Made by a program: the position numbers and the translations under genes | The notes under the pieces: model-generated | What the model was told of the DNA's origin: nothing | The model's input: only the letters and a program-made list of their open reading frames with translations | Databases searched by the model: none | Assembly: GCF_032118995.1 (NCBI RefSeq) | Contig: NC_092663.1 | Span: 8,432,001-8,496,000, forward strand | Direction: 5' to 3' | Source: Asterias amurensis | Taxonomy: Eukaryota; Echinodermata; Asteroidea; Forcipulatida; Asteriidae | Length of the DNA stretch: 64,000 nt | Shown: piece by piece, positions 4,442-63,801 of the stretch | How positions within the stretch are numbered: position 1 is the stretch's first letter | Layout of the letters: every line of letters starts with the position of its first letter

Positions 4442-4656
4442 TTATATATCTCTTTTAAAAAGTCGAATGACGCCCTCTTGGTGCAGTTTTGACCAGAGAA
4501 AGCGTTCGTTATCCACGTCGTGAGAGCCGGTCGAGACGTCCGTGTGCTTCACGAAGCTCGTATCGTAGTAGTGCATGGTGAATCGGGGATCGTAACCGAA
4601 TCCGTAGATTGTCACCTCGTCACAGAGATGGAGGGCAAGAAATACTGTCATAGCAC
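4442..4656 (-). CDS. ST6GALNAC-like: Gene A exon 7: motifs S (end), III, VS and stop
   Basis: The terminal coding exon, 215 bp. It encodes [20 protein letters not shown], then HYYD (motif III) and SHDVDNE (motif VS, His-x4-Glu), ending [10 protein letters not shown] and a TAA. Acceptor TTTTTCACAG. The next feature downstream is the TIR element ending at 4287, so the 3' UTR is short or runs into it. Confidence 0.93.
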
Positions 4657-7600: not shown

Positions 7601-10600
7601 ATTTCTTTTTATTTTAATGTTTATTAAGATAATAAATGTTAATAAATTGCACATCTTCACAGCAATGTACCAATGCGCTTCACACTGTCACTTAGGACTC
7701 ACAAAACTATTCCAGTAATCTTTCTTTGTAGCCCTTGGCTGCCGTTGGGCTCATAAGGCTTATTCGACCACAATATTTCAACATCTTTCATGTACCCGTT
7801 GATACCTGTGGGTAAAAGAGAAGCAAATACACATGTATAGGAAAGCATCTTGCCCAAAGACACAAGTTAGTGTTTCGAATGAGACTCGAACCTACGACTT
7901 GAGCCACCTTAACTTGAACCTGGTGCACTAGACCTTTTGGTCATGACCAATGTGGCAGAAGGTTATGTACCAAAAAAAAGTTTGCTCTCTTAGTAATTAC
8001 CTTATCAGAAACGTCTCTTACGCTCATCGACTCCGGGAAGAAAATATAGAAATTCGTTTTCTTCCCCACGTCTTTTTCAAATTGTCCTGACGAGATAGCT
8101 CTGTTCAGTCTTAAAAAGAAGAAAAAAAAGAAGAAAAACAAATTTCTTAGTATTATACGCTCGGTTTGAATGTGATATCTTTCTCAGGTTTCCTCAATTT
8201 CAATACTCACAGAAAGGGACCAGTCTATGTTGTGGGAGACGTTTGAACGCTAGGTGGCAGCAGACTTACTAGGTAAAGTTCCACTTAAGTAATACATGGT
8301 AAGTCTGTTGCCACATAAGTTCCCCATTGAAAAGGATCACAATCAACTTATCTAGATAATTATAACAAATGATGCGGCATCTTTCGTTTTCAATTGTAAC
8401 CAAACCGAGGCTTAAAGAAAAACAGTCAGGTCCCTCCACAGGAAATGAGAGTTAGAACTGTGTGTACATACAGTGAACCTAGCAGAGATGTTCAATTAAA
8501 CCTAATTCAACCAAAGGACTCAGCAGTCTGGTCCCTTCACATGAAATGAGCGTTAGAACTGACATTGTCACTCTGTGTTCAGGTAATTTGACAAAGATGT
8601 TCCATACCAATTGTAACAAAACCGAGGCTAAAAGGAAAACAGTCAGGTCCCTTCACATGGAATGAGAGTTAGAACTGTGGCACTGTGTCATGGAACCTGA
8701 CGGAGCTGTTCCATTAAACCAAATGCAACCAAAGCGAGGTTGGAAGGACACAACAGTCTGATCCCTTCACATGGAATGAGAGTTAGAACTGTGGACTGTA
8801 TCAGGGAACCTGACGGAGATGTTCCATTAAACCAAATGCAACCAAAGCGAGGTTGGAAGGACACAATAGTCTGATCCCTTCACATGGAATGAGAGTTAGA
8901 ACTGTGGATTGTATCAGGGAACCTGACGGAGATGTTACATTAAACCAAATGCAACCAAAGCGAATTTGGAAAGACACAACAGTCTGATCCCTTCACATGG
9001 AATGAGAGTTAGACCTGTGGACTGTATCAGGGAACCTGGCGGAGATGTTTCATTAAACCAAATGCAACCATAGCGAGGTTGGAAGGACACAACAGTCTGG
9101 TCCCTCCACATTGAATGAGAGTTAGAACTGTGGACTGTAACATGAAACGAGCGTTAGAACTGATTATTGTCACTCTGTGTACAGCGAACCTGACAAAAAA
9201 AAGGTTCCATTACACAAAAGGAAACCTAACCAAAGCTGAAAGAACAACCCAGTCTGGTCCATTCACGAAATGAGAGTTAGAACTGATATTGACTCTTTGT
9301 GTAGGCCTGCAGGGAACCCGACAAAACATGTTCCTAACCGAGGCTGAAAGGACAACCCAGTCTGGTCCATTAACATGAAATGAGAGTTAGAGCTGTGGGA
9401 CTGTACAGAAAACCTGACGGAGATGTTCCATTAAACCAAATTCAACCAAACCGAGGTTGGAGGGACACAAACGTCTGGTCCCTCGACATGAAATTAGCGT
9501 TAGAACTGTCATTCTGTGTGCAGGGAACCTGACAAAGATGTTCTACTACACCAAATGCAACCCATCTCAGGCTGAAAGGGAAAAAATCGAGTATTGTCCC
9601 TTCACATAGAATGACAGTTAGAACTGCTTTTACCTGAATACATAATCGTGGCTGTCAATTTCCGGGCCGGCTCCCGAGTCTTTAAGGATACCCCCACAGC
9701 CCACCACGGCGCACCGTAGACACTGCTTCCTCGTCCCGTTGGGGTGGGCCGAGGAATTGCTGAACTTAGGATGACCAAGAATCTTCTGAAACACTATTAT
9801 TGCAAAAATGCAGATTTAGAATTTGAGGTCTCGAAATCAACCATCCAAAAGCACACGAATCGTGTGACAAGGGTGTTTTTTCTTCCATTATCATCTCGCA
9901 ACTTCGATGACCGATTGAGCTCAAATTTTCACAGGTTTGTTATTTTATGCATATGTTGAGATAAACCAAGTGAGAAGACTGGTCTTTGACAATTGGCCAG
10001 TGTCTTTAAGAGAAATGTTTGTGGACTACAGTGGATGGACATCCCTTTGTTCTGTACACAAATGAAAACCCTATTCTTCAAACACTGTGAGGACGTGTGT
10101 AAATCCACATAGTGTTCCAAGCCCATTTTGTGTCCCAAGACTTCTTTTGTTTATCAGGTCCACACTTCGTATACTATGTAACGGTAAAATACACACACAA
10201 TCCAATCACACGTGTTTGTTTTTGGTGTATACCGAGTACTTCTCTTTGTTCTCCCATTGATTTGACATGATTTTCAGACGTCCCCCATTGTTTTTGTACA
10301 CAAAATCTACCGAGAACTGTCCTCGATCCGTCATTTTCCCTGATCCCGTTTGTTAAAGTCCTCCGTAATCAATAGTAGACATGCCCACACCCAAAGCGCC
10401 ATCATGTATCGTAGGAGGTCCTGTTTTCCCTAAAATCGTGGCAAATCTTTTACCTCTCTGTGCGCGATGTAAACAGTCCCTAGATAAAAGTTGTGTGGTT
10501 TTATTTTCCAAGCAAAGAGTCTCCTCTCCCTTGACCAAAACTTAGAAACACGTAAGGCTCCACTGGTTATTTGCACTTATAAATGCAAAAAGTTTGGTAT

Positions 10601-13096
10601 TTTAGGCATTTCTACAAGGTACAAAATTATGTCATAATGTCATTTTTGGAGATTTTTATTTTTAAACCCTCATATCAATATTATTATTAATATTGAAATT
10701 TAAACATCAGCTTGCTGATTCAACTAATACTGTTTATTAATACGCTTTATTATAAATACTAAGAAAGAAAAAAAAAAAAAAAAAGTCAGATTTGAAAGCC
10801 AGTAACTATTCACACTTGTTTTTATTTTTTTATTATTTTTTGCAAGTTACCATGGTAATTTTTAAAATTTAATAAAAAAATATTTTGACTAAAATTAAGA
10901 CAACTGCTGGCTATAGAGTCATACACAGAGTCTCAAAGAACACTTGTAGTCGCTGTAGATGTTTCTTCCATGTATGGCTTCACCGGGAAACCATACTTTC
11001 TCGTTTGCCGTGAAAACAGGAAAAACTCAAAACAAAAGGGGCCGGTGTGTGGTGTGAACATTTCAATGTCCATCAAGTTTTGATATATGTTTGCATACTT
11101 CATATTAACAAATGAAGATAATTAGGGCATCGGTTGATATATGGCATCATTATTTTTTTCCCAATTCAAAGAAAAAGGCATAATACCGTGAAAACTGGTA
11201 AGACGAGGATACATAACTTACGTTGTTTACTCTCTTTTTTGTAGCCGAACGGCAGGCCGTACTTCGCCAGGCTGTCGAAGTTTCCCGAGTCCTCTTTGTC
11301 CAGAAACACTTTAATGTTTGGCTTGAATCTTTCCTTAAACCACTTTGAATACAGTGCTATTGAAGAAACTCTCTTTGGACACGTCTATTGTTTAAAACAA
11401 AACAACATGTGTTTTTTTAATTTTTATATCAACTGTGGCTTTTGTTTAAACACAACTTCAAATGATTATATCTTTTTAAAAGGCATTAGGCCTACCTTTT
11501 AACCATTTTTTCGGTATTGCCTTTACTTGTGGTGTTATAGTGTAGCAACGACTCCTATTGTTTTTACACATTGCTTGAATTTGAGTCGGTTTTGTTCAAC
11601 AATGTATTATATTTCTAGCTGTATTTTTGCTTATCTTTTTAAGCTTAATGTTAATGTTAACAAGCAAAAAATGTCTGTACAGCGTTTTGAGATTTTTAAT
11701 GTAATAAAGAATATAAGCCTATTATTATTATTATAATTATTATTATTATAAGTTGAACGTCACCTCCCTTTCTTTACATTAATTGGTATTTGGCGTTAAA
11801 TTTTGTTGTTGTAATACGAGAAATCTAATAAATGATCAGTGCAAAACTCATTGCTATATAAGACTGCGGAATTATTATTACACGATATATTACGTACACG
11901 ATAGGTGAGATTTTTTGTTAAAGGGTCTATGTACTTTTTGTGGGACAAAAAAACACAGTGTCCACAGATTTGCACTAAACTTACACAGGTTGAAAATAAT
12001 GACAGTAAAAAGCTTCCCTGAAAATATTACTTGCTGAAGTGCTGTCGTTTTTGAGAAATGAATAAAATAATTTTCGTCTCAGTGATCATGAGACGAAAAT
12101 TATTTTACCATGTAAAAACGTATTTTCATGACATTGTTTTACTCATTTCTCAAAAATACAGCACCTCAGCAACTAATATTTGTAGGTAAGCTTTCTACTA
12201 TCGTTATCTTCAAACGGTGTAAGTTTAGTGTAAATCTGTGAAAATTGTGCTTTGTGTTACAAAAAGTACCCAAATCCTTTAATGCGTGTGGCGGCAATAC
12301 GTTTCCATATAATTATATTCCCCAGCAAACATGGAAAATTAAAACATTTTGAAAATTAAAGGATAAACAAGAACAAAGATATTACAATAGCTTTAAGTAA
12401 AACACAAACATGTTATATCAGTATTAAAGCAAATTACTGAGGAACCTGGCTTGGTGAGCAGATTTATGTATAGGAAACAGCCGGATCCAGTGCTTAAACC
12501 AATGGAAGCGAGGATAAATTAATGCTGATTCAATGGAAGGAGCACTCATTTTGAGACGAAATTCAATGAGCTTGGTGATTTTGGTTTGGTTAAGAACTAC
12601 GATCAAATCGATTTGTGCACTTTATGTTATACAGAATAATGGAATTTACTGAGTGATACAATAAGCCCAGAATCTAAGTAAACACAAACATGTGTCCATG
12701 TTTGCATGTTATTATTATCTTTAATATGATTCATAAAATCAAACTCACCGATTCTTTATAGTTGCGATTTTCCATGAAAGGGTGTTTCACCAATGCTGCT
12801 TTGGCCCTCCGTGCTCCAGCAGGGATGGGTCTCTCCGCGCGTTCCGCCCCCACCAACTGACCCCCAGCGTTCTTCTCATTGTAAGGAAGAATGGCGGGTC
12901 CAGGGAGCGACCCCGTCGACCGGGAAACACCGCCGATGCCTCCCCGTGATGCGATCCCAGAGAACACCCGACGGAGCTCCACGTCAACGTGGGTTACTTG
13001 GGCGAGGAGCGCTAGGACACCGTACAATACGAGCAGTGAGACCAACCCAAGTACGGCGGATCGGGTGAATCTTGCCGTGAACAGTCTTACAGCCAT
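4442..13096 (-). CDS. ST6GALNAC-like: Gene A: ST6GALNAC1/2-like sialyltransferase (GT29), seven coding exons
   Basis: Predicted to transfer sialic acid from CMP-Neu5Ac in alpha-2,6 linkage to O-linked GalNAc, in the Golgi as a type II membrane protein. Coding exons, 5' to 3' on the minus strand: 12749-13096, 11222-11384, 9634-9793, 8001-8109, 7149-7258, 5204-5316, 4442-4656. All junctions are GT/AG and phases agree across the gene (1218 nt, 405 aa). A signal-anchor lies at about residues 13-33, followed by a stem. Sialylmotif L is at about 197-242 ([23 protein letters not shown]), motif S at about 313-350 (HPDF, RPTTG, CDEV), motif III is HYYD at 363-366, and motif VS is His380-x4-Glu385. Cys198 and Cys346 are placed for the conserved disulfide. 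The 'VVGCGG' and 'HYYDTS' variants point to ST6GALNAC1/2 rather than ST3GAL or ST8SIA. Length is close to vertebrate ST6GALNAC2. No break is seen. Untranslated exons are not located. Confidence 0.93.
4686..4765. repeat. Short tandem repeat, ~18 bp unit
   Basis: About four degenerate copies of 'CGAGTTTTCCCGAAGTAAAA'. Related pieces occur at 4915-4965. The repeat lies between exon 7 and its relic duplicate. Confidence 0.75.
4790..4874 (-). pseudogene. Relic duplicate of gene A exon 7
   Basis: Inside the last intron of gene A, a second copy of the exon 7 start reads [19 protein letters not shown] and keeps an acceptor ('CATTTCAG') in the right phase. Similarity fades after the CDEV/CDKL region, and motifs III and VS are absent. 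If spliced to exon 6 it would replace the catalytic C-terminus with unrelated residues. It is most simply a decayed tandem exon duplication. Confidence 0.75.
5204..5316 (-). CDS. ST6GALNAC-like: Gene A exon 6: start of sialylmotif S
   Basis: A 113-bp exon encoding [20 protein letters not shown] and ending [12 protein letters not shown] and RPTTG are family hallmarks. Acceptor TTCTTTCAG, donor GTAGGC, leaving in phase 1. Confidence 0.92.
5684..6072 (+). mobile_element. TTAA-flanked MITE (AGGCAGTGGACACTATTGG family), intron 5 of gene A
   Basis: Begins TTTAAAGGCAGCGGACATTA and ends with the inverse sequence 'CAATAGTGACCAGCGCCTTAA'. About 389 bp, non-coding. Other copies are at 13516, 22435, 46485 and 47575. 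Confidence 0.85.
6359..6396 (+). mobile_element. MITE end fragment
   Basis: A solo end of the same TTAA MITE family ('CAATAGTGTCCAGTGTCTTT'). It may be the remnant of a second insertion or of an internal deletion. Confidence 0.6.
6694..6711 (+). repeat. Poly-C tract
   Basis: A C homopolymer of about 16 bases inside intron 5 of gene A; the surroundings have no recognisable gene. Confidence 0.8.
6968..7120. mobile_element. Palindromic MITE, 153 bp, next to gene A exon 5
   Basis: A nearly perfect inverted repeat beginning 'GGGTGTGTTCGTTTAGCT' and ending 'AGCTAAACGAACGCACCC', with 'CACACCGGG' and 'ACGAACGTG' in the stem. It lies about 28 bp from the exon 5 donor and would fold into a long hairpin in the pre-mRNA. 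Confidence 0.85.
7149..7258 (-). CDS. ST6GALNAC-like: Gene A exon 5: linker between motifs L and S
   Basis: A 110-bp exon encoding [20 protein letters not shown] and ending FGIEL. It aligns with the 'DVRYLHFLEGTRDYEWLEAL' stretch of vertebrate ST6GALNAC1. Acceptor TTTCACAG, donor GTAAGTG, leaving in phase 2. Confidence 0.9.
8001..8109 (-). CDS. ST6GALNAC-like: Gene A exon 4: sialylmotif L, second half
   Basis: A 109-bp exon encoding [18 protein letters not shown] and the following FFPES segment, the donor-binding part of motif L. It enters in phase 2 and leaves in phase 0 at a GTAATT donor. Confidence 0.93.
8391..9632. repeat. Minisatellite, ~113-bp unit, intron 3 of gene A
   Basis: About eleven degenerate units of roughly 100-120 bp, each with 'CCCTTCACATGGAATGAGAG', 'TTAGAACTGT' and 'AACCTGACGGAGATGTTCC'. 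The last partial unit runs into the splice donor of exon 3: the first intron bases after GTAAAAGC read 'AGTTCTAACTGTCATTC', which is the unit in reverse. Confidence 0.9.
9634..9793 (-). CDS. ST6GALNAC-like: Gene A exon 3: sialylmotif L, first half
   Basis: A 160-bp exon. It contains two N-glycosylation sequons (NSS, NGT), the motif-L cysteine and [11 protein letters not shown]. The acceptor used here ('AATAATAG') is the one that keeps phase 1 from exon 2; a second AG eight bases further in would break the frame. The donor GTAAAAG directly adjoins a minisatellite, and decayed MITE sequence begins about 20 bp upstream of the acceptor. Confidence 0.9.
9813..10010 (+). mobile_element. Partial TTAA MITE in intron 2 of gene A
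   Basis: Carries the inner part ('TTTGAGGTCTCGAAATCAAC') and the right end ('CCAGTGTCTTTAA') of the 13516-13900 family. The left end is missing. It starts about 20 bp upstream of the exon 3 acceptor. Confidence 0.75.
10011..11221. other. Rest of gene A intron 2; no further gene
   Basis: AT-rich intron sequence with a poly-A run near 10769-10786. No open frame with recognisable similarity and no structured RNA was noticed. Confidence 0.6.
11222..11384 (-). CDS. ST6GALNAC-like: Gene A exon 2: CPK...KWF module
   Basis: A 163-bp exon entering in phase 0 and leaving in phase 1, with acceptor 'CAATAG' and donor 'GTAAGT'. It encodes [19 protein letters not shown] and ends [11 protein letters not shown]. 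The stretch aligns with the pre-motif-L region of ST6GALNAC1/2 and with gene B exon 2, which has exactly the same length and phases. Confidence 0.92.
11918..12282. mobile_element. Hairpin MITE, TTAA-flanked, 365 bp, intron 1 of gene A
   Basis: Starts TTAAAGGGTCTATGTACTTT and ends with inverse 'AAGTACCCAAATCCTTTAA'. The arms carry 'GTGTCCACAGATTTGCACT' and its inverse. The centre is a perfect palindrome around 'ATTTTCGTCTCA...TGAGACGAAAAT'. Related half-copies occur near 20805, 48800 and 58795. Confidence 0.85.
12749..13096 (-). CDS. ST6GALNAC-like: Gene A exon 1: cytoplasmic tail, membrane anchor, stem
   Basis: Encodes residues 1-116. The start is the ATG at 13094-13096, with G at -3 and +4. 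[12 protein letters not shown] is a short basic cytoplasmic tail; a roughly 20-residue hydrophobic anchor follows, then a Gly/Arg/Pro-rich stem. The exon ends NRNYKES before a GTGAGT donor in phase 0. Gene B exon 1 ends DPAYKQS at the same phase, which supports common ancestry although the stems barely align. GC content is clearly higher than the surrounding DNA. Confidence 0.88.
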
Positions 13097-38330: not shown

Positions 38331-40811
38331 GAAGTTTATTTTATGCTATCTACGATACATCCTACAGAGCCGGATCCAGACTATGGATCTGAGGCGCTAA
38401 AGGGGTGATGTTATTTAATGGATAGAATTCTACGTAGTATGTGAGCTGTGCCGAGGAGTGCAATCTTCTGGACTAAGTTGATGCTTATGCTGCCAGGGAT
38501 ACGTTCAATGAATTTCTCCAGTCCTTTCTTTACTAGTCCCAGAGCTCCGATGACCACTGGGATTGTCTCGGTCTTCATACTCCACATTCTGCTAATCTCG
38601 ATCTCAAGGTCTTTGTATTTAGACAGCTTCTCGGCAACTTTAATTGAGGTGTTTCGTTCGGAAGGTATTGACACATCAATTAGTATACACCTCTGGTCTT
38701 TCTTGTCCTTGATGATGATGTCGGGTCTGTTGGCTTTAATCTCTTTGTCAGTATGGATTGGCATGTCCCAGAGGATGGTGACTACATCATTCTCTGTGAC
38801 CGTTGTCGGCTGATGTTTGTACCACTCCCCTGTCGTCTCTATGTTGTAATGCCTGCAAATTTTCCAGTGAAGGTACGCCGCTGTCTTATTGTGTCGATGA
38901 ATATACTCCGTCTTCGCCAGCTCTGGACATCCAGAGATAATATGGTCTACGGTTTCTTCATATTTTCCGCATATCCTACATTGTGGGTCTATTCCATCTT
39001 TGATGATGCGATGGTGAAATGATCTGGTGGCGAGACTCTGGTCTTGGGCGGCAATGATAAGGCCCTCCGTCTCTGCTTTCAGCCCGGTGTTTTTAAGCCA
39101 TTGGTGTGTCTTCAGTTGGTCAACATCTGCTTCTTTCGTCCTTTTTGGATACTTCCCGTGCATTACCTTGTCTTCCCAGGTTTTCTGTAGTTGTTCATGA
39201 CCCTTGGTTTTTGCTGTCTTCTTTACTCGCTTTGTATAGATAGTTGTTGCTTCATTATCTGATGGTGTGATTTCTGAGTAGTCAAGTTCTCTTTTGAATT
39301 TTACTGCTTCTTTTTTGATGGAGTAGAGCTTTTTCTTGTCATCATGTTGTTTCACTATTTGGAGGAGTGGGTCATTAGTTTTCGTCAGATAAGCATCTAG
39401 ACCGATTGTGGAGGTTTTGAAGGTCAGTTCAAGCTGGATCAGGCCACGTCCTCCAGTTGATCTTGGCAGGTACATCCTGTCAATGTCTGCTTTTGGATGG
39501 TGCATCCTGTTCATGGTCATTATTTTTCGTGTCTTTGCATCCATCCTCTTAATCTCCGACAGTTTCCAGTTGATGATATTGAAACTGTACGATACTACAG
39601 GTATTGCAATGGTGTTGATAGCTTCAAATCGGTTGGCTGCATTAAGTTCACTCTTCAGTATCATCCGCACTCTTCTATAATACTCTTTCCGGACCTTCTC
39701 CTTCATGGCTGAGTGTTGTATGCCGTTACCTTCATTTATTCCAAGGTATTTGTATGTACCCTCTTGGTCCATCTCTTTGATTTTAGTGACAGTGTCAATG
39801 TCTAGGTCTGTTGTTTTGGTGAGTTTTCCCCTTATGAATGTGGCTTTGGCACACTTATCGAGTCCGAACTCCATCCTGATGTCGTCACTGAAGGTCTTCA
39901 CAATGGTGAGCAGACCTTTTTGCTGGTTGTCATCCTTGGAAAATGTCTTGAGGTCATCCATGTAGACAAGATGGTTAAGTTTGCCATTTTCGGATGTGTA
40001 TCCGTAACTACTGTTGTTCAGCAGGTTGCTAAGTGGTGCTAGCGCTAAACAGAAAAGTAGTGGTGATAGTGAATCTCCTTGGAAAATCCCGCATCTAATG
40101 TTAATCGGTCTTGATGTTAACGACCCTTCTGCATGGTGGAGATTCAAGGTGGTTTTCCAGTTCATCATGCTTGCTGTGATGAAGTTGACAGTAGTTGGAC
40201 ATATTTTGTAGATTTCAAGGCATTTTCTTATCCAGGAATGAGGTACACTATCAAATGCCTTCTTGTAGTCAATCCACGCTGTTGATAAGTTTTTTTTCTT
40301 AAATTTGGCTTCTTCCATTACGGTTTTGTTGATTAGTAGCTGGTCTTTGCAGCCATAGCTTCCTTTCCTACACCCTTTCTGTTCTACTGGTAGCAAGTTG
40401 TTTTCATCAAGGAAGCTGTACGTCCTCTCTGTTAGGATGGAGGTGAGGATTTTGTACATTGTGGGCAGGCAGGTGATTGGTCTATAGTTCTTAGGGTTCC
40501 GGGTCTCTTCCGACTTTGGAAGCAGGAATGTAGTTCCCCGTGTCAGCCATTCGGGGCATTTCTCTGGGTGTTTGACTATGTCGTTGTAGGCCAATGCAAG
40601 ATCTTCGTGGATGCTAGGCAAGTTTTTGATCCAGAAATTCGCAATTCCGTCTAATCCCGGTGCCTTCCAGTTATTGGTTTTATTGATAGCTGCAGTGGTC
40701 TCAATGGTGTTTATATCTGACCATTCTTGGCTCGTTACATCTGTGTATTGGTCCTGTTGCTGTTGGATCCAGGTAGCTCGGACGTTATGCATTTTGTTGT
40801 TTTCAAGGATC
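38331..40811 (-). mobile_element. R4/Dong-like LINE with restriction-like endonuclease, 5'-truncated
   Basis: About 2.48 kb, 3' end at the low coordinate, flanked by direct repeats of up to 94 bp (38237-38330 and 40812-40905) that end in (TTA)n. Dong elements are known to favour TAA/TTA repeats, which fits this location. The body is uninterrupted, so the insertion is probably recent. Confidence 0.85.
38419..40811 (-). CDS. RT and restriction-like endonuclease of R4/Dong-like LINE
   Basis: About 795 codons without a stop. RT motifs: 'WKAPGLDGIANFWIKNLP', 'NYRPITCLPTMYKILTSI', 'AWIDYKKAFDSVPHSW', 'GDSLSPLLFCLALAPL' and the catalytic 'YMDD'. After the RT come the CCHC-type knuckle 'CRICGKYEETVDHIISGC' and the PD-(D/E)xK-like 'RPDIIIKDKKDQRCILIDVS', the order known for R2/R4/Dong-type LINEs. 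The true N-terminus is lost by 5' truncation. The frame stays open through the flanking (TTA)n, giving a meaningless poly-Asn extension to about 41485. The stop is TAA at 38419-38421 or very near it. Confidence 0.85.
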
Positions 40812-40853
40812 TTATTATATAAATTATACTCAGCGCCTTGAGTACCTTGTTTG

Positions 40854-41286
<433 letters not shown>

Positions 41287-41287
<1 letters not shown>

Positions 41288-42126
41288 ACGTGGAATCTTT
41301 CTTTTCGGACAACCAACTGGACTCCCGAAGAAACCGGCAAAAGAAATAGAGGGCGACAAACAGAACATGGATATATATAAACTAAGTACATAGGGACATG
41401 CGCAGGATAGCAAAAATGGAGAATTGGTGAATATCGGCTTTTCTCCTGCAGTGAAGTGAAAAGGGCTGGACAGACCAAAACGCACATCTTCCCTTCAAAC
41501 CAATTACGGGAAACATGACATGTTTTGCTTTGTGTTTCCACCGTTGATATTGACGTGAAAGCGAGTGTTTAAATGATCGATTTTGGTGCGCGAAACAGAA
41601 AAAACACACGCAGCTGCTGGCAGTCGCCAAACTTCACCTCCAGTTTTTTGTGTCCAGTATTCAATCAATATTGCTCTTATAGTTTCACTATACGCCTATG
41701 AGCAGAGACGGATTGCGAACTATTGTATCTCTACCAAACCTAATGGGATTACTCGGAAATTAAGGGCGTTGCAAGGACAGTGTTTTACTCTGTATAAATA
41801 ATGAGGTTCGTTCCGCTGTCGACTTCACGAAATTATTGCCAAAAATTATTTTGGTATGTTCTTAAAATCGGTCTGCATTACGGTACGAGAACATAACACG
41901 TGCAAATTGTCATAGCATACTCTGATTGCGGCAGCAATACGCCTATTTGAGTTGGAATGAATAACTATCCATGGTATTTATTAATCCGTCCTCGATTGGA
42001 TATCACTGACATGTCGTAACGAGTCGAATCGGAAGGAAGAGTCGGATCGGAAGGAAGACGCGGATCGTCAGGAAGACGCGTCTCTGGTGAGTGTGTATCT
42101 TGAGATCTAGACTCCGGCCCTCAAGT
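41287..42126 (+). promoter_or_regulatory. Upstream region of gene B; short GGAAGGAAG-bearing repeats
   Basis: No recognisable gene. 42019-42080 has degenerate tandem units 'TCGGATCGGAAGGAAGA' and 'GACGCGGATCGTCAGGAAG' just before exon 1, probably 5' UTR or proximal promoter; the GGAA cores could be Ets-type sites. No TATA box is evident. Confidence 0.35.
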
Positions 42127-42525
42127 ATGGCATCATTATTCAGACATCGACGGCTGTACCTTGCCCTAGCGGTTCTCTCGATCTACGGTGGGATAATGTT
42201 GGTGTTGAAAGTCCTCAAAACATCGAACGGTGGAGAGGTTTTAAACTCTCTTCTACACCAGTCTAAACTGGAGGTGGGTCACTCAGATCGATCGCAACAG
42301 GCGTTCAAATTAGGAACAATCAACAATACTGCGATCCATTTAAACAATGTCAGTGGCCCTCAGGGGGATCAGATAAGCAAGAAAGAGGTTGTTATTGAGA
42401 ACGAGGCAAAATTAAAGAGACAACAAGAAGAGAACGAGGCAAAGTTGAAGAGAGAGCAAGAAGAGCTAAGAGTCAGAGAGCTCGAGAGGATGCCATTCGT
42501 AAGAGATCCAGCATACAAACAGTCG
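42127..42525 (+). CDS. ST6GALNAC-like: Gene B exon 1: tail, membrane anchor, coiled stem
   Basis: 133 residues. ATG at 42127 has A at -3 and G at +4. MASLFRHRR is the basic tail and about residues 10-28 the signal-anchor. The stem has two N-glycosylation sequons (Asn66, Asn74) and a charged coiled-coil-like stretch at about 92-117 built from two 11-residue units (NEAKLKRQQEE, NEAKLKREQEE). It ends DPAYKQS before GTAAGT. An upstream in-frame GTG at 42091 is not a credible start. Confidence 0.85.
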
Positions 42526-44694
42526 GTAAGTTATACTTCATTGAGTCAAATTCAATTTCTTTAAAAGGATTTATTTGTACAATTTTATATACAAATCTGC
42601 GGAAATGTCCTTTATCTAATATCGATGTACAAGGTAGAAATTTACTCTACAAACCTATGGGAATGTCCAACATCCACTATCGATGTGTACAAGGTAGAAT
42701 GTAGGCCTACAATATCCAATATCTAAGGTACAAAAGCTATGGCATTGTCCAATATCCAATATCGATGTACAAGGTAGACATTCACTGTACAAAAGCTATG
42801 GGAATGTCCAATATCCAATATCGATGTATTACAAGGTAGACACCCATTGTACAAAAGCTATGGGAATGTGCAATATCCATAAGGTAAACCGCATTCGCTG
42901 TACAAAAGCTTTGAGAATGTCCAATATCCAATATCTATGTATTAATAATAATAATAATAATAATAATAGTAAAAATTTATATAGCGCCATATCCATCGAA
43001 AACAATGCTCCATGGCGCTAATACAGAGAAACATTAAAAATTTAGATAATCAGCAAAAACAACAAGATATAAAAATAAGTTCAAAATCAAGCAAACAATG
43101 ACAAGCAATTAAAGAAATGAACAATAAACAATGGAAAAGTATAAAATATACAATAGTATGCACAATTTAAAACTGCAAAGAGATTGTACAAACAGACCAG
43201 CTGTGACCCAATAAAATTGTAAAATGAGACATTCACTAAAACTCCAGGGAAATGATAATTAATTACAGAATGGAAAATAAGTGCTACAAGAGACCTTAAA
43301 TGAATAATAAAAAACACAACTACTTGAACAATAAACAGTTATAAAAATGCCTTTCGAAAGAAATGGGTTTTTAGCCCGGATTTAAAAACATCAATACTTG
43401 CTGTTTCCCTGAGACACAAATTCAGCTGGTTCCACAAGTTAGGGGCAATGGCGGAAAAAGCTCTATCCCCAAAAGTACATAATCTGGTATTGCAGTGTTG
43501 TAGTCTGGTTTTATCACATGATAACCGTGTGTGTCTACGTGAACATGAGCTAGTAGTATGCAGTAATTTACAGAGATAGTCAGGGGCTAGACCATTTAAA
43601 CATTTATGAACTAGAAGACACACTTTATACATGATTCTATAATTTACCGGAAGCCAATGTAGCTTCATGAGTACAGGGGTTATATGCTCGAATTTTCTGG
43701 TTCCTGTGAGAAGCCTGGCAGCAGAATTTTGCACTCGTTGTAACGGTGCCAGTGTGGACTGGGGTAAACCTGCAAACAAGGCATTGCAATAATCTATCTT
43801 GGACATGACTAGCATTGTTATAACTTGCTCAGTGACAGAATAATTCAAGTATTTCTTGATCTTACTGATATTATGCAGATGGTAAAATGCATTGCGAGAT
43901 ACCTCACGAATGTGACTTTGCATGTTTAAGTTACAATCAAAGATGACCCCAAGATTTTTCAACTGTTTTGATGATTTTACAAGGTAGACACCCATTGTAC
44001 AAAAGCTATGGGAATGTGCAATATCCATAAGGTAAACAGCATTCGCTGTACAAAAGCTATGAGAATGTCCAATATCCAATATCGACGTACAAGGTAGACA
44101 TTCACTGTACAAAAGCTATTGGAATGTCCAATATCCAATATCTCTGTATGACAAGGTAGACACCCATTGTACAAAAGCCATGGGAATGTTCAATTTCCTA
44201 TATCAATGCAATGGTCGACATTCACTCTACAAACATATGTGAATGTCAAAATATCCAATATCAAACCAACTTTACTGTCATTTTAGAATTAAATATGTTG
44301 ATTGTGGTGTTAATTACGCCATTGTACCTGTGGTTGTATAGAAACTTTATATACAAATTCGTTCTTTAAAAAACTACTAGGAGCATTGCAAGCAAAAACC
44401 TTTATTCCAAAAGGGTTTTCAGCTGTAACCATCTTTTAATATTATGCATGAACCTTTGAACATTAAATTTGTACACTTGCGATAGCTACGCACACCTCTT
44501 AACCCTTTCCGCATTGTGTCTTGATTTAAAGGTTTGCCCAAAGACTGTTTCTTCAGTGACAAAGTATTCCAAATGGTTCCGGGAAAGATTCATTCCTGGG
44601 ATTAAAGTTTTCATTGACAAGGAAGACCTTCGCAGAGTGGATGAACTAAAAGTATATGACCTCCCATTCGGGATCAAACGGTCAGACCAGGCAT
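42127..44694 (+). CDS. ST6GALNAC-like: Gene B: ST6GALNAC1/2-like sialyltransferase, 5' exons only
   Basis: Paralogue of gene A on the opposite strand; same predicted role (Golgi GalNAc alpha-2,6-sialyltransferase). Coding exons in the window: 42127-42525 (399 bp, phase 0) and 44532-44694 (163 bp, phase 0 to 1). Exon 2 matches gene A exon 2 in length, phases and sequence (CPKTVSSVTKYSKWFRERF against [19 protein letters not shown]). No exon with sialylmotif L or S is found up to 64000, so the catalytic part lies past about 19 kb of transposons or has been lost. A 50-bp minisatellite grows out of the exon 2 donor. Whether the gene works is unknown, but both exons are open with sound splice sites. 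Confidence 0.85.
42600..44275 (+). repeat. ~60-bp minisatellite in intron 1 of gene B, split by a LINE
   Basis: About ten units with 'GTACAAAAGCTATGGGAATG', 'TCCAATATCCAATATCGATG' and 'ACAAGGTAGACA' occur at 42600-42940 and again at 43978-44275. They were one array before the LINE fragment at about 42941-43977 inserted. Confidence 0.88.
42941..43977 (-). mobile_element. CR1/L2-like LINE, 5'-truncated, in intron 1 of gene B
   Basis: The minus strand encodes a LINE C-terminus of about 215 codons (LKNLGVIFDCNLNMQSHI, KIDYCNALFAGLP, HITPVLMKLHWLPV, FGDRAFSAIAPNLWN), ending near 43339. The 3' UTR and a (TTA)n tail run to 42941. It resembles the C-terminus of the 49615-53663 LINE but is a different subfamily. 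Confidence 0.85.
44532..44694 (+). CDS. ST6GALNAC-like: Gene B exon 2: CPK...KWF module
   Basis: Encodes VCPKTVSSVTKYSKWFRERF and ends VYDLPFGIKRSDQA, leaving in phase 1 at 'GCAT|GTAAGTAG'. Acceptor 'TGATTTAAAG', with a modest pyrimidine tract. If the intron is retained the frame stops two codons after the donor. The last 43 bp are the founder unit of the array at 44652-46470. Confidence 0.88.
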
Positions 44695-46470
44695 GTAAGT
44701 AGTATATGACCTCCCATTCAGGATCACACGGTCAGACCAGACATGTAAGTAGTATATGACCTCCCATTCAGGATCAAACAGTCAGACCAGGCATGTAAGT
44801 AGTATATGACCTCCCATTCGGGATCAAACGGTCAGACCTGGCATGTTAGTAGTATATGACCTCCCATTTGGATCAAACAGTCATACCAGGCATGTAAGTA
44901 GTATATGACCTCCCATTCGGGATCAAACGGTCAGACCTGGCATGTTAGTAGTATATGACCTCCCATTCGGGATCAAGCAGTCAGACCAGGCATGTAAGTA
45001 GTATATGACCTCCCATTCGGGATCAAACGGTCAGACCTGGCATGTTAGTAGTATATGACCTCCCATTCGGGATCAAACAGTCAGACCAGGCATGTAAGTA
45101 GTATATGACCTCCCATTCGGGATCAAACGGTCAGACCTGGCATGTTAGTAGTATATGACCTCCCATTCGGGATCAAACGGTCAGACCTGGCATGTTAGTA
45201 GTATATGACCTCCCATTTGGATCAAACAGTCATACCAGGCATGTAAGTAGTATATGACCTCCCATTCGGGATCAAACAGTCAGACCAGGCATGTAAGTAG
45301 TATATGACCTCCCATTCGGGATCAAACGGTCAGACCTGGCATGTTAGTAGTATATGACCTCCCATTTGGATCAAACAGTCATACCAGGCATGTTAGTAGT
45401 ATATGACCTCCCATTTGGATCAAACGGTCAGACCAGGCATGTAAGTAGTATATGACCTCCCATTCGGGATCAAACGGTCAGACCTGGCATGTTAGTAGTA
45501 TATGACCTCCCATTTGGATCAAACAGTCATACCAGGCATGTAAGTAGTATATGACCTCCCATTCGGGATCAAACGGTCAGACCTGGCATGTAAGTAGATG
45601 ACCTCCCATTCGTTATTAAAAGGTCAGACCAGGCATGTAAGTAGAATATGACCTCCCATTCGGGATCAAACGATCAGACCATGCATGCAAGTAGTATATG
45701 ACCTTCCATTCGAGATCAAACAGTCACACCACGCATGTAAGTAGTATATGACCTCCCATTCGGGATCAAACAGTCAGACCAGACATGTAAGTAGTGTATA
45801 CCTCCCATTCGGGACCAAACGGTCAGACCAGGCATGTTAGTAGTTTATGACCTCCCATTCGGGATCAAACGGTCAGACCAGGTATAAAGTAGTGTATGAC
45901 CTCCCATTCGGGACCAAACGGTCAGACCAGGCATATAAGTAGTTTATGACCTCCCATTCGGGATCAAACGGTCAGACCAGGTATAAAGTAGTGTATGACC
46001 TCCCATTCGGGACCAAACGGTCAGACCAGGCATATAAGTAGTGTATGACCTCCCATTCGGGATCAAACGGTCAGACCAGTCAAGTAGTATATGACCTCCC
46101 ATTCGGGACCAAACGGTCCGACCAGGCATGTAAGTAGTTTATGACCTCCCATTCGGGATCAAACGGTCAGACCAGACAAGTAGTTTATGACCTCCCATTC
46201 GGGATCAAACGGTCAGACCAGACAAGTAGTATCTCCCATTCGGGATCAAACAGTCAGACCAGGCTGGTAAGTAGTATATGACCTCCCATTTGGGATCAAA
46301 CGGTCAGACCAGGCATGTAAGTAGTTTATGACCTCCCATTCGGGATCAAACGGTCAGACCAGACAAGTAGTATATGATCTCCCATTCGCATGTAAGTAGT
46401 ATATGATCTCCCATTCGGGATCAAACAGTCAGACCAGGCATGTAAGTAGTATATGACATCCCGTTCTGCA
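44652..46470 (+). repeat. 50-bp minisatellite made of exon 2 end plus splice donor
   Basis: The first unit (44652-44701) is the real exon 2/intron 2 junction of gene B: 43 coding bases ('GTATATGACCTCCCATTCGG' through 'CAGACCAGGCAT') followed by 'GTAAGTA'. About 36 further units follow head to tail with no spacer. By reading, about half keep GTAAGT at the donor position; many others read GTTAGT. Variant units ('CATTTGGATCAAACAGTCAT') recur in alternation, suggesting higher-order amplification. Because 50 is not a multiple of three, reading frames rotate between units. Confidence 0.95.
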
Positions 46471-46484
46471 ACTGCTATCTCACC

Positions 46485-46847
46485 TTAAAGGGGCGGTACA
46501 CGTTTGGTAATTACTCAAAACAAATATTAACTTAAAAACTGACATGGTAACGAGCATCGGAGAGCTGTTGGCAGTATAACAATTGTTGGACAATTGTTGG
46601 ACAATTCTCTCTAAAGTAACGTAGATGTTGAGAAAGAGGTAATTTCTCACTAAAATATTAAAATACTTCTAGCTAGAAGTCATGCCTTATCTGAAAGGGT
46701 TGTTGTTCTTTCACCATTTTCTCACAACTTCAAAGACAAATTGAGCCCAAATTTTCACAGGCGAGTTATTTTATGCTCTATATGATGGGATACACCAAAT
46801 GAGAACATTGGTCTTTGACAATTACATAACGTGTACAGTGCCTTTAA
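46485..46847 (+). mobile_element. Diverged TTAA MITE
   Basis: TTAA at both ends, 'AAGGGGCGGTACACGTTTGG' at the left and 'CGTGTACAGTGCCTTTAA' at the right. It lies directly after the minisatellite, in intron 2 of gene B. Confidence 0.8.
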
Positions 46848-47182
46848 GTTCCTATGACTTAACAATTAAAATTATGATTAAACATTAATTTACAAAATTA
46901 ACAGTCAGAGAAAAAAAGACAATACCAACTTTTAAAAACAACCTTCAACGCGTCCTACTTATACAAGGTCATCATCTTGAAGGTTGGGCGACCTTTCTAT
47001 TGTTTTATACACGTGTCCTGGCAGACAGATGTTCGTGTTTTGTTATTGTTGACACAATTATTTATTTGTTACTAAAAGTTCTAAAAAGCAACTAAGACAA
47101 CGGTTAATTTTCTACTAAATAATATGCAGCATACAAGCACAGAAAACAGAATAACCCAAACAAAACTGCTAACACTACCTCT

Positions 47183-47942: not shown

Positions 47943-48237
47943 GCAATATATTTTTAAAAGATTTATAATGTAAGTTTTAAATTTGACGCTGGAATACCTT
48001 ATACTGGCTTTCCCCATCAGTTTTTAATTAATAATTGGGTGTTTGTATCAGATCTTTACATAATTAATAAACGACTACACTTAAAATTAGAAAGTAAACA
48101 AACAAGCCAAAATGCAAAAGTCATTCTACGTAATTCAACCACATCTGCCTCATCACTCCATATTACATATTTATTAGCTGTTCCGATCCAGTCGGAACAG
48201 CTGTTGTTTTCGTCGAAATTTTTATTTTTTTTCTTAT
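47943..48237. other. No gene; terminal hairpin-like motif at 48175-48203
   Basis: AT-rich. 'AGCTGTTCCGA' and 'TCGGAACAGCT' form an 11-bp stem just before the Helitron-like copy 1. It may be the edge of another repeat. Confidence 0.45.
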
Positions 48238-49439
48238 TCTTTGTTTCTGCCTAAAACCCATAGCATTTGTACACGTTTTTTTCTTTAAGCCTAATCTCCC
48301 AAACCATAATACGAAAGAGTGAGTTTATTATACCAAATTGTATCTTAGAACATAAGCTTTACTCTAAATGTAAACAAAAATAAGAATCTTAATTAATTAA
48401 CCACGTAATCTTCATTTGAATATAACTGGATGTAGTCGCTTCCATGTTATTGTTAAATATTATCTTTGGTAAATCCCATACAGTATGTACCTATCATGAG
48501 TTGTGACTTCTTGAGATGAGTCGACGCGTTTGAATATAACTGGATGCAGTCACTTCCATGTTATTGTTAAACATTCTCTATGGTAAATGCCATACAGTAT
48601 GTAACTATCATGAGTTGTGACTTCTTGAGAGGAAGTCTACTCATTCTGTTTCCCTACCATCGTTCAGGACCCATAACAATCTAACCGAGTTCCGGGCCCA
48701 TATACTTTGCACGCGACAAAGTACGAAGGTTTAGGGATTTCGTTCAAACGAACGTGCGTAATTGAATAGGGGTTTTTGACGACGACGACACACCATCGTG
48801 TCCACAGATTTACACTAAACTTAAACAGTTTGAAGATAATGATAGTTGAAAGCTTCCCTTAAAATATTACTTGCTGTGGTGTTGTAGTTTTTGAGAAATT
48901 AGTGAAAAAACTGTCAACGTATGACTGGGACCGAGTTGGTTTGGGACCGAGTTGACCGGTGTCATGACAAAAACTGTCCGCTGGCAATAAATGTCCGCTG
49001 AGCATGCGCAGTAGACCCTGGACACTATTTGGCATGTATTACGTGACAAATAGTGTCCGCCCAACTAAAAGTGTCCGGGCGCCGTGCTGCACAGTGCTGA
49101 TTTATATTAAAAGTAAATACAAGCCAAAAAAATAAAATAGACGAACAGAACACTCAAAAGTATGTCAAGATTAGTATCTTATCATGAAAACAGTGCAGGT
49201 TTAAAAAGTACGAATTGTGAAAGTGCTAAAATGTTCTTACGAATTATTTACAATAAAATACAACGAAGAAAGCGTTCAAGTAAAGACAAGCTAGGTTTTG
49301 CGTGTCTAAAAATATTATGTTATATACAAATTACACTAAAAATTAACCATTTACAAAAATACATGGAAATATAATATAAACAACTCTGAAAAGTATTACA
49401 ATATACAGGCGAAATACGAAAGATAAAAATAGTACGATA

Positions 49440-49614: not shown

Positions 49615-49840
49615 TGTTTCATGTTTGACTGAGCGCCTGACAGCGGCCACTCAAATCAGCTCTGTGTTTGTTTGCTAATTTCTTAGTATATTGCTCAATT
49701 TGTGTTCTTATTCTTATACAACTGGATTTGTTACTACACCTGGAATCTACAGGACTTTTTCTGTGTATCCTGGAGTCATCTGAATTGTGAAAATAGTGTT
49801 TTTCTGTTAGAAATTTTCACTGTCTCAGCTGAGAATTCTG

Positions 49841-52800
49841 GTGTATAAAGCTTACACACACTTACGTGGCTGCATCCTGTGCAGTCACCCACCTAGTCCA
49901 TGGACATTGTTCTCCCATCTGGGGACAATGGAGGTAAGTATCCTTTTCATTCTCTCCCTGCTTGCTAGACCATTGTACTGTACTGACTCATCTGTGGTCA
50001 GCTTTGTTCCATCAGCATCAATTGTGTCTGGTGCTTGCATTCTGCCAAAGACACATCTAGGCCTCATCCACCATCGAAGATATCTGAAATGCCCTGTTTC
50101 TTACTATGACAACTCCCCAGCCACTTTTCATTTGGAAATTGTGATTTTTGGTGACATTGCTGTAAATCCCGGCCCTGAAGGTGTAAATAACTCAAATTCA
50201 GCAGAAGCTAGTCCAAACTCTGCAAATTCCTACTCACGGAACAAGCTTCTCAGTCTCCGCTATGCCCCATCCACACGTGCTACAACTCTGCTGCCTTCCT
50301 GTATATTATCATTACAGAACCTTGGCCTTTTTGTAAATCCCAGCACTGTTTATCGACCTACACATCGTGGTAAAAAAGCTGGTCGCCGTAGAACTGTTCA
50401 TAATCCCCCTGTACCCGAAGTTACACTCCCTTCTGTTCCAGTACCAGTGACTACTGCCAAATCTCAACTCAGCCTTTGTGTTCTAAACACACAGTCCATC
50501 TGTAACAAGTATGACGATTTTGCTGATTTTTTTCTGCAAAAAGATCTGGACCTTGTTGCCGTTTCAGAAACATGGCTGAGACCAGACGACAACTTAACAT
50601 GTCGTCAGTGTACCCCTGCTGGCTACTACTTTCATCACATCCCAAGACCTCACAAGACTGGTGGAGGAGTTGCAATACTGTACAGATCTACTTTATCTGT
50701 CTCTGTGAAAAATAATGACGTCCAGTACACAACTTTTGAATCTCTTCATGCTGAAGTTTCCGGAAACTCTAAATCTGTTCGCCTTGTCATTGTATACAGA
50801 CCTGAGAGGGATTCAAACGGCCAACATGTGACTTTCTCAAGTTTTCTAAGGGAGTTTGAGAATTTGATTTTGGAATATCTGCTTCATCCATCGGAAATCA
50901 TCATCACCGGCGACTTTAACATTCATGTTGATGACATCCATAACACCAATGCAAACCAGTTTAAGCATCTGCTTCAAGCTTTTGGTCTCACCCAGCATAT
51001 CCAGGAGCCGACTCATCGTCTCGGTCATTGCCTGGACCTTGTCATAACTCGTGAAATCTCCCCACCAATTGTCTCAAACTTTGTTATTCTACCTGGATTA
51101 TCTGACCATTATGCAGTCATGTGTAACTTGAGTCTGTGCAAGCCCAAAGTCCCAACCGTCACTATAAAGAGCCGACAATGGAAACATGTGAATCCTCCCG
51201 AAGTGTTCCGCGACATAGGCACTCATTTAGCAAATCTAGAAGTTGATCATGACTGCTTGGATTCCTATGTCAGCCAATATGAGAGTACAGTCAGTGACAT
51301 CTTGGATAAATACGCACCTTGGATAACGAGATCAGTCAAGGTCCGAACTGAAGTCTCCTGGTTCAATGATGATATTCGTACAGCGAGAAAGATCTGTCGT
51401 CAACTGGAGCGGAAGTGGCGGAAAAATGGCAAATTGGCAATACAACGACAAGAATATCGCAACCAATGTAAAGTAGTTAGGAATTTGATCAACCAGGCAA
51501 AGATCATCCATTATTCATCTCAAGTACAAGAATCCTCAGGAGATCAAAAGAAGCTCTTCAAGATAATTGGTAAGTTGTTGCTCAAACCCAAAACCCCTGT
51601 CCTTCCATCCACCTACAATGACCAGGACTTAGCAAATGAGTTCCAGAAATTCTTTGTCACCAAGATTTCAGACATCCGCTCATCATTTTCATCAGTCCCT
51701 TACAACGTGCCGCAGACATTGCCACATCTTCAACCAGAGTGTAGATTATCTGTGTTTGAGCCTGCCACTGTTGCTGAGATTCAAAGGGTTATTATGAAAT
51801 CTCCTTCAAAATCCTGTGAGCTGGATCCAGTATCAACATCCATGATAAAGCAAAACATTGACATATTTGTACCCTACATCACTAAGCTTGTAAACGAATC
51901 TCTCAGTTCCGGTTGTTTCCCCGATAGCCTCAAAGTTTCCTACATCAGGCCGCTCATCAAGAAACCAAACCTGGACAAGGAGATATTCAAAAACTACAGA
52001 CCGGTTGCAAACTTAAAATATCTTGGAAAAGTCATCGAACGAGTAGTGTCATCACGTATTTCTGATCACATTCATACTTTCAACCTGTCCGACGTATTCC
52101 AGTCAGCATACAAGCCTTTCCATGGGACCGAGGCTGCACTAGTCCGTGTGAGCAACGATATTCTCTCTTCTATGGACAATGGTAACCTTACAGCACTAGT
52201 CCTGCTAGACTTGAGTGCTGCTTTTGACACTGTTGATCATAACATCCTTCTCTCTCGGCTCCAGAATCACCTTGGCATAGAGGACACAGCCCTAGCATGG
52301 TGCAAATCGTATCTCCACAACAGAACTCAGCATGTATGTATTGGCACTGCAATATCCGACCCTGTTGTTTTGAACTACTCTGTGCCACAGGGGTCGGTAC
52401 TCGGCCCGCAGTGGTTTACGCTGTACACTTTACCGATTCGTGACATCATCCTCAAATTTAATCTGAATTACCATGTGTACGCAGACGACACTCAGCTATA
52501 CATCACGTTTAAATCTTCTCAAGAAAACGCCAATGCATCTATTGCAAGACTTGAGAAATGCATCCAAGAGATTCGACGTTGGACACAACAAAACTTCCTG
52601 AAGTTAAATGATGATAAGACAGAGTTCCTTTTATTTGGGTCACGTCAACAGTTAACTAAGGTTTCAGTGCCATACATCTCCATCGGTGATGCTCGGATAG
52701 CTCCCTCGCTGAAAGCTCGGAACTTAGGGGTTATTTTTGATTCATCGATGACACTTCAGCCACACATCAACAATATTGTTCGTTTATCATCATATCACAT

Positions 52801-53328
52801 CAGGAATATAGGTAAGATTCGCAAGTACTTGGACAAAAGTGCCACTGAAAAGGTCATTCACGCATTTGTTACTTCTCGTCTTGACAACGGCAATGCTCTT
52901 CTCTACAGTCTTCCTAACAACCAGATTTCCCGACTTCAACGGCTCCAAAATACTGCTGCCCGCATTGTGACACTGTCTAGAAAATCCTGTTCTATCACCC
53001 CATTCTGAAACAACTACACTGGCTCCCTATCTCTCAACGAATCATCTTCAAGCTGATGCTCATTGTCCACAAAGCTCTAAATGGCAAGGCTCCCCACTAT
53101 ATTTCTGAACTGCTTCAAGTTTACACTCCATCAAGGAATCTTCGATCAAGTTCCATGCTTCTCCTCATTGAACCCAAGTCTCGACACTCATGGGGTGACA
53201 GGTCTTTTTCTGTAGCCGCGCCACGCATCTGGAACTCTCTACCACTTAATCTTCGATCTTGTCTTTGTACCGCAAAATTCAAGTCTCTTCTCAAAACTTA
53301 TCTTATGTCACAGGTTTTCAATGACTAA
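49841..53328 (+). CDS. CR1-like LINE polyprotein: 2A-like site, AP endonuclease, RT
   Basis: The frame 49841-53008 is open (1055 codons), and the last ~100 codons continue in another frame at about 53010-53328 after one small frameshift near 53005. The N-terminus has a hydrophobic stretch (VSILFILSLLARPLYC; possible start at MEVS, 49928) and then 'FGDIAVNPGP', a 2A-like sequence with break point Gly-Pro at 50171-50176. Endonuclease: 'SLCVLNTQSICNKYDD', 'VAVSETWL', 'IITGDFNIHVDD' and 'GLSDHYAV'. RT: 'NYRPVANLKYLGKVIERV', 'LLDLSAAFDTVDHNILL', 'SVPQGSVLGP' and 'YADDTQLY'. The C-terminus has 'WGDRSFSVAAPRIWNSLP'. The gene drives target-primed reverse transcription; this copy needs no more than the one shift explained to look intact, so it is young. 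Confidence 0.88.
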
Positions 53329-53416: not shown

Positions 53417-53915
<499 letters not shown>

Positions 53916-58165: not shown

Positions 58166-58794
58166 AGCAAAAGAACACGGAACAGCTTTGTGTTTGTTCA
58201 CAAACACCTAATGTCTAGTTATTATTATTCTTTGTTTCTGCCTAAAACCCATAGCATTTGTACACGTTTTTTCTTTAAGCCTAATCTCCCAAACCATAAT
58301 ACGAAAGAGTGAGTTTATTATACCAAATTGTAGCTTAGAACATAAGCTTTACTCTATTTGTAAAACAAAATAAAAATCTTAATTAATTAACCACGTAATC
58401 TTCATTTGAATATAACTGGATGCAGTCGCTTCCATGTTATTGTTAAATATTCTCTTTGGTAAATGCCGTACAGTATGTACCTATCATGAGTTGTGACTTC
58501 TTGAGATGGGTCTACGCGTTTGACTATAACTGGATGCAGTCACTTCCATGTTATTGTTAAACATTCTCTATGGTAAATGCATTTCAGTATGTACCTATCA
58601 TGAGTTGTGACTTCTTGAGAGGAATCTACTCAAGTCTCTTTTTCTTGTTTTTCTACATACGTTCTGGACCACAGCGCAGTGTCTGTTTCTTCGTTTCCTA
58701 ACCGAGTTCTGGACGTACACGAAGGCATAGGGTTTTCGTTTAACGAACGTGCGTATATAAATAGGGGTACGTTTTTGACGACGACGACATACCA

Positions 58795-58910
58795 TGGTGT
58801 CCACAGAATTACACTTAACTTAAACAGTTTGAAGATAATGACAGTTGAAAGCTTCCCTTAAAATATTACTTGCTGTGGTGTTGTAGTTTTTGAGAAATTA
58901 GTGAAAAAAC
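58795..58910 (+). repeat. MITE-like half inside Helitron copy 2 (also 48800-48910)
   Basis: 'GTGTCCACAGAATTACACTT' and 'AAAATATTACTTGCTGTGG' match the arm of the 11918-12282 hairpin MITE. A following 78-bp segment (58905-58981 region) is tandemly duplicated in copy 2 only. Confidence 0.75.
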
Positions 58911-59735
58911 TGTCAACGTATGACTGGGACCGAGTTGGTTTGGGACCGAGTTGACCGGGTTCGTTTTTGAGAAATGAGTGAAAAAACTGTCAACGTATGA
59001 CTGGGACCGAGTTGGTTTGGGACCGAGTTGACCGGGTTCGTTTCAGGCGACGAGCGTGGACGACGAAAATAGAACGCCTGGGATTTGGACTCATTTACGG
59101 GTGAAGTCACCTTGTTTGCGCCGGGGACCATTTGCCTAAACTAATTCAAGTATTTCGCTTTCTTTTCGGAAATTATACCATGACATACAACAACTCTTTG
59201 GCAGGAATGCAAAAGCAGCGATTTTATTATGCTGACGTTTCTCTTGTGGTTGATGAGTGGGTCATTTATATAGAGCTGCTTATAATAAATAGGCAAAACA
59301 TTTTGCTTTATAAAAATGCAGAAATTGAGCAGAATACCTGGATTCACGACTTGTACAAAATGAGGAATGGTATTTGCTGTGTTTAAATGCTTTTTGTGTT
59401 TTAAAAGCTATATGTTGTTTGGTCTGGTCCTGTGCCAATGACTTTTTAAAGGAAGAAACGCAGCGCTTACGTAATCAGGGAATTGTGCTTACGCTAAGCA
59501 TAATTAACAGCTTAGCAGGGAATGTGTTCTTGAGCGTCACAATTCGCAACAACAAAATTGCTACAGTTGACTAATATTATTGTGCTCAATTCCTGTGAAA
59601 CTGTCGCTACAAAAACAGTGACTTAAAAATTTTGATTTGCATTCACAGGACAACCGTGCTTTATAATTAGTTGTGCAAAAGTAGGCCGGGGCGACTAGTG
59701 TGCTTAAGTATTAAAGTCGTGACTTCAAATTATTA

Positions 59736-63759: not shown

Positions 63760-63801
<42 letters not shown>

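Follow-up and report, generated by a model that had tools for sequence, protein, structure and literature searches.

The DNA analysed here, a 64,000-nt stretch of the Asterias amurensis genome (contig positions 8432001-8496000; the window), lies in a region rich in GT29 genes. In the genome (491.5 Mb, 23 contigs), at least 115 matches to Pfam PF00777 were found at E ≤1, and a cluster of them at C16:8348828-8518944 is located on the contig of the window. Six neighbouring ST6GalNAc-like GT29 genes could be recognized in this cluster, on both strands. Gene A is found on the minus strand (~4445-11381 of the window, first exon not located) and gene B on the plus strand. Gene B carries a 50-bp minisatellite at the end of its second exon. 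The features are listed below, in window positions unless contig positions are given; the slash in a donor marks the exon end.

42127-42525, plus strand: coding exon 1 of gene B, 133 codons, by eye encoding a membrane anchor and a stem; ends in phase 0 at donor TCG/GTAAGT
44532-44694, plus strand: exon 2 of gene B, 163 nt, with five paralogous exons and an in-phase join to exon 3
44651-44700, plus strand: unit 1 of the array, identical to the consensus (wrap-around alignment)
44695-44700, plus strand: donor 1, CAT/GTAAGT, by sequence the sole array donor joining exon 2 to exon 3 free of a stop
44700-44702, plus strand: TAG in the frame of exon 2, kept when any donor past donor 1 is used
44701-46466, plus strand: 36 later copies and a 19-bp stub; 18 GTAAGT, 9 GTTAGT and 9 without GT
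46484-46848, no strand assigned: short element with ~45-bp terminal inverted repeats beginning CTTAAAGG, separate from the array
contig 8503268-8503424: exon 3 of gene B, beyond the window
from contig 8504349: exon 4 of gene B, tentative end
near contig 8517623-8517733: later exon of gene B
near contig 8518756: last exon of gene B

The identity of gene B was derived from the genome-wide Pfam search and from its joined exons. Exons 1-4 could be joined in frame, as seen in the joined translation, and matched Glyco_transf_29 with 90.3 bits (cut-off 23; E 1.8e-25). Their best PDB relative was 6apj, ST6GALNAC2 (E 6.8e-15, best of 8). As judged from its sequence, gene B is a GT29 sialyltransferase gene, and the predicted enzyme is ST6GalNAc-like, an assignment made by best PDB match. 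No Pfam family was matched by exon 1 alone (searched in frame from 42124 as a stretch that also took in some of the intron) or by exon 2 alone, and the single PDB match of exon 2, to a ribosomal structure (E 0.66), was judged to be due to chance. A motif regular expression for exon 3 gave no match within the 64-kb window, since exon 3 starts at contig 8503268, outside the window.

Open frames and conserved motifs are seen in the later exon and in the last one, as in exons 1-4. In the DNA examined, all of it outside 8506001-8509000, an exon that should lie between exon 4 and the later one did not turn up. The Pfam match over exon 4 continues through a TAA past the assigned exon end, and the stretch bearing this TAA is taken to be intron. 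Because of the missing exon, the tentative end of exon 4 and the TAA, the integrity of gene B is established only in part. Intron 2 of gene B has a length of 26,573 bp, and the corresponding introns of the five paralogues measure roughly 0.35, 0.6, 1.4, 1.8 and 2.9 kb, as estimated from match positions.

The surroundings of the array contain several other repeats. The short element at 46484-46848 lies 17 bp past the array end and resembles a TTAA-type DNA element by eye. Within the stem-coding part of exon 1 of gene B, 33 bp are tandemly duplicated (42397-42465); an 18-bp tandem repeat is located at 42021-42080, ~50 bp upstream of the start codon. Intron 1 contains two arrays of one ~60-bp unit (42728-42941 and 43996-44264), which flank a minus-strand frame at 43339-44115 that appears by eye to be a reverse-transcriptase fragment; they look as if a single array had been split by an insertion. 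Long, near-pure TTA microsatellites were observed at 40857-41286, 53417-53669 and 63760-63800 (143, 84 and 14 copies), the first two in or near the ends of long frames at 38411-41494 (minus strand) and 49811-53008 (plus strand), both resembling reverse transcriptases by eye. Two stretches of ~735 bp, 10 kb apart (48228-48959 and 58219-58958), are identical in 671 of 755 aligned columns, and each holds a two-copy 114-bp tandem repeat. Elsewhere in the cluster, L063:181-1143 and L063:1838-2800 form a perfect direct duplication (963/963 bp identical), each copy of which contains the last exon of a neighbouring sialyltransferase gene; this is either a recent event or an assembly duplication.

Exon 2 could be compared with its relatives in the cluster. 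A genome search with its 54-residue peptide gave 12 matches, all on one contig. Five were the paralogous exons, with identities of 39-61% and E between 4e-15 and 5e-7; the others were exon 2 itself and six weak ones within the array. When the sequences were read, the donor was found 7 codons and 1 nt past a common PFG motif in all six genes, with GTAAGT at this position in five of them and GTAAGA in one. The paralogous exons, sharing donor position and phase, indicate that exon 2 is a real exon. In a TRF scan of 143.5 kb of the cluster (rows with ≥2.5 copies, period ≥10 and ~≥100 bp), compared with a set of 31 homology-placed exons, 30 of them within the scanned DNA, only 2 of 26 rows touched an exon, and both belonged to the 50-bp array. 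In the scanned DNA, TRF detected no tandem array closer than 100 bp to any of the exons placed for the five paralogues, all of them downstream of the first exons.

TRF placed the array at 44651-46388 (35.4 copies, score 2671), and by wrap-around alignment its end was moved from 46388 to 46466. The array at 44651-46466 thereby comprises 37 head-to-tail units, with only 29 bp left of unit 36, and ends in a 19-bp stub. Unit 1 matches the array consensus at 50/50 positions and consists of the final 44 nt of exon 2 followed by GTAAGT, so that the array begins within exon 2 and runs across its donor. If the unit is instead taken as 44653-44702, intron GTAAGTAG and exon TATATGACC adjoin and share the two bases AG (by eye). 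An earlier reading of the locus, made from the sequence only, had described the first unit as the true end of exon 2 with its donor, followed by about 36 head-to-tail copies. The first part is borne out by the five paralogous exons and the in-phase join to exon 3, and the second by the 36 copies found, one cut short, plus the stub. The start given there, 44532, is the first base of exon 2 (44532-44694) and had to be corrected to 44651 for the array itself.

Copies of the array at unrelated loci, named in the sequence-only reading as evidence that would speak against it, did not appear. All 28 matches in the 491-Mb genome to a 31-base core of the unit (≤3 mismatches) lay within the array, the reversed-pattern control of this core gave no match in the genome, and the ten genome matches of a 200-base array query were likewise all in the array. 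Together with the paralogous exons and the identity of unit 1 with the consensus, the single locus lends good support to the proposed birth from an exon-intron junction. Among the 37 units, 24 distinct types could be distinguished. In units 1-19, identical pairs were found at lags 1-5 in 1/18, 3/17, 3/16, 4/15 and 1/14 cases, and at lags 6-9 in 4/13, 3/12, 1/11 and 1/10 cases. This recurrence at several lags apparently fits a duplication of blocks of a few units. On average, 2.4 positions separate units 2-19 from unit 1 and 5.3 separate units 20-37 from it, when gaps are scored and the shortened unit 36 is kept (Mann-Whitney p 0.002, calculated as if units were independent, which they are not). 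Due to this lower divergence, the exon-side half of the array looks younger.

The repeat units carry consensus donors. With unit 1 included, 19 of the 37 units have GTAAGT, 9 have GTTAGT and 9 are without GT, one of the latter with GCAAGT. The estimate that about half of the copies keep GTAAGT proved accurate (18/36 copies, or 19/37 with unit 1). Seventeen downstream 9-mers are identical to that of donor 1, and for all these CAT/GTAAGT sites, including donor 1, the predicted U1 duplex has an energy of −7.1 kcal/mol. Unit 33, with CTG/GTAAGT, is predicted to pair more strongly than donor 1 (−10.7 kcal/mol) and the GTTAGT sites more weakly (−3.2 kcal/mol); values between −3.0 and −5.1 kcal/mol were obtained for the nine sites that lack GT. 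The line of U1-type donors described behind the exon is thus present, made up of 17 identical 9-mers, one site predicted to be stronger, nine weaker ones and nine without GT. GT is present in 18/18 of units 2-19 and in 9/18 of units 20-37. As every full unit repeats the final 44 exon nt, local context hardly separates the donors. Unlike local context, distance from the upstream 3' splice site can tell them apart: use of donor 1 gives an exon of 163 nt, donors 2, 3 and 5 give 213, 263 and 362 nt, and the last donor gives 1910 nt.

Exon 2 is entered in phase 0 and left in phase 1, and consequently the bases over donor 1 read TGT AAG TAG. Since exon 2 sets the frame into the array, every downstream donor keeps the TAG at 44700-44702. 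The sequence-only reading had assumed that a later donor would usually shift the frame or meet a TAG, because the frame rotates with each unit. The TAG was correctly foreseen, but "usually" and the rotation do not apply: the frame entering the array is already fixed by exon 2, and the same TAG is always met. From the sequence, use of a later donor adds at least 50 nt, with the TAG two codons past the donor 1 position, and gives a predicted product of 133 + 54 + 2 = 189 residues that lacks the catalytic motifs. Each donor after donor 1 is, by this reading of the frame, a poison donor. Stop-bearing mRNAs of this kind would be expected to be degraded by nonsense-mediated decay.

Signs of selection were looked for in the variation among units. 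Four of 32 distinct substitutions fell in the donor hexamer (3.84 expected; 36 of 37 rows, unit 36 omitted), and 2 of 10 distinct deletions touched it. Over all 37 rows, variability per cell was 0.108 in the hexamer and 0.070 in the rest of the unit. The donor bases vary as the other positions of the unit do, so that selection for or against donors is not seen. Within the limits of a small test, the mutation pattern argues as much against a U1 platform being maintained as against decoys being purged. The presence of GT in 18/18 exon-side and 9/18 distal units could be read as selection, although the distal half is also more diverged; the loss of GT follows this divergence gradient, in which selection near the exon could be hidden. 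Genome-wide, three GTAAGT with gaps of 24-54 bases occurred in 3364 matches, compared with 3588 for the reversed control, so that there was no excess of such triplets; among the matches listed, most came from one array region on contig C1.

RNA structure was considered as a mechanism. A 22-mer hairpin that includes the donor is possible at each junction, with a predicted energy of −4.4 kcal/mol. Folding z-scores of three two-unit stretches were −1.42, −0.16 and −1.58, and the mean predicted accessibility was 0.39 for the 37 array donors versus 0.38 for 13 other GTAAGT in the window. For donor 1, the predicted accessibility was 0.34 with and 0.21 without the array. On the basis of the z-scores and the equal mean accessibility, RNA structure was rejected as a mechanism.

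Combining these results, we favour, with a probability of about two in three, a minisatellite that was seeded by duplication of the exon 2/intron 2 junction, has grown in the intron and is tolerated, with splicing from donor 1. As the sequence shows, the seed was a tandem duplication of this junction in a GT29 (ST6GalNAc-like) gene; growth within the intron probably proceeded through the copying of several units at a time. In all likelihood, donor 1 is still the site at which exon 2 is spliced. Exon definition would be expected to give the advantage to donor 1, and perhaps to a few donors right after it. Leakage to later donors would result in the 189-residue stub or in mRNA lost to nonsense-mediated decay, and such leaky unproductive splicing perhaps accompanies the tolerated array. 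As all later donors are unproductive, the array would be at most a weak sink on the productive splicing of one of six paralogues, and it appears to evolve much like neutral intron sequence. Among the roles that had been suggested for it, simple tolerance fits best. In studies of duplicated donors, the donor nearest the 3' splice site reportedly can win when several strong donors are occupied; were this to apply here, the array would be more harmful than tolerated.

An unlikely alternative is that the array acts as a rheostat, in which its length, if variable, sets the fraction of splicing from donor 1 and hence the dose of sialyltransferase. All 18 downstream GTAAGT donors reach the same TAG, 17 of them have the 9-mer of donor 1 and one is predicted to be stronger (−10.7 versus −7.1 kcal/mol), the 44 exon nt borne by full copies leave little context to separate the donors, and the exon-side units look more recently amplified. 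However, the donor bases are without special constraint, and GT is gone from 9/36 copies. If the rheostat did exist, every added unit would be an extra U1 site that diverts exon 2 to a stop-bearing product, and array length would tune the output of one member of the sialyltransferase cluster.

It is also improbable that gene B is dead or dying from splicing disturbed by the array, with the loss tolerated thanks to neighbouring paralogues. Such a fate would be in line with the many equal donors, of which only the first is productive, and with the similar genes clustered nearby, but exons 1-4, the later exon and the last exon are open with conserved motifs, and these frames have stayed open though the units are ~5-10% diverged from unit 1.

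A U1-binding platform was also proposed in the sequence-only reading. A form of it in which the donors recruit U1 snRNP and shield the long intron 2 from premature polyadenylation (telescripting) is very unlikely. Telescripting is an established process, intron 2 is far longer in gene B (26,573 bp versus roughly 0.35-2.9 kb in the five paralogues), and its portion within the window contains 16 AATAAA and 24 ATTAAA. The proposal is nevertheless left unsupported by the unconserved hexamer, the loss of GTAAGT from half of the copies and of GT from distal units, and the lack of a genome-wide excess of GTAAGT triplets. Moreover, the sites are located at the intron start, where donor 1 already recruits U1. 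Within the array, AATAAA occurs 0 times (1.9 expected) and ATTAAA once (2.0 expected), counts that say little because the array is a single unit repeated.

It is hardly credible that the array was produced by misassembly, or that a satellite of separate origin captured the end of the exon. Nothing found at this locus points to either; given the perfect 963-bp duplication in another part of the cluster, errors in the local assembly are conceivable in general, but all 28 core matches lie at the gene B locus, 24 unit types among 37 would be unlike a stuttered assembly, and donor position and phase agree with the five paralogues.

The 9-mer of donor 1 recurs in 17 copies, and these eighteen donors are also preceded by almost identical 44-nt stretches of exon; what sets them apart is chiefly their distance to the upstream 3' splice site. 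Nature thus offers here a rare chance to learn whether 5' splice-site choice is decided by exon definition or by donor position. With every downstream donor running into a single stop codon, the proportion of productive transcripts is simply that spliced at donor 1, which ordinary RNA-seq could show.

The human IFI6 minisatellite has a 12-bp repeat unit, and its later donors add in-frame codons. By searches of open-licence literature, it appears to be the nearest known parallel. A tandem repeat at an exon end with donor-bearing units is common to IFI6 and gene B, but gene B has a 50-bp unit, 37 units and a stop from every downstream donor. Frame-keeping by later donors, a trait of IFI6 that is perhaps not a defining one, is absent in gene B owing to the TAG; because a stop follows every downstream donor, the gene B array represents a variant and not the strict IFI6 pattern. 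In IFI6, two downstream repeat units act as donors and three mRNA species are formed (PMC4526556). A comparable use of donor 1 and the next few donors in gene B should fit exon definition.

In a report on intron gain in a potato RdRp gene, a tandem genomic duplication copied splice signals, as in gene B (PMC4974935). There a new intron was made, whereas in gene B an existing junction was copied and an existing intron lengthened. Indeed, gene B does not have a new intron absent in its relatives, as the donor is found at the same position and phase in 6/6 paralogues. With ordinary intronic minisatellites and VNTRs, the gene B array shares the head-to-tail arrangement, the mixed unit types and the signs of block duplication; unlike them, its seed is the end of a coding exon together with its donor.
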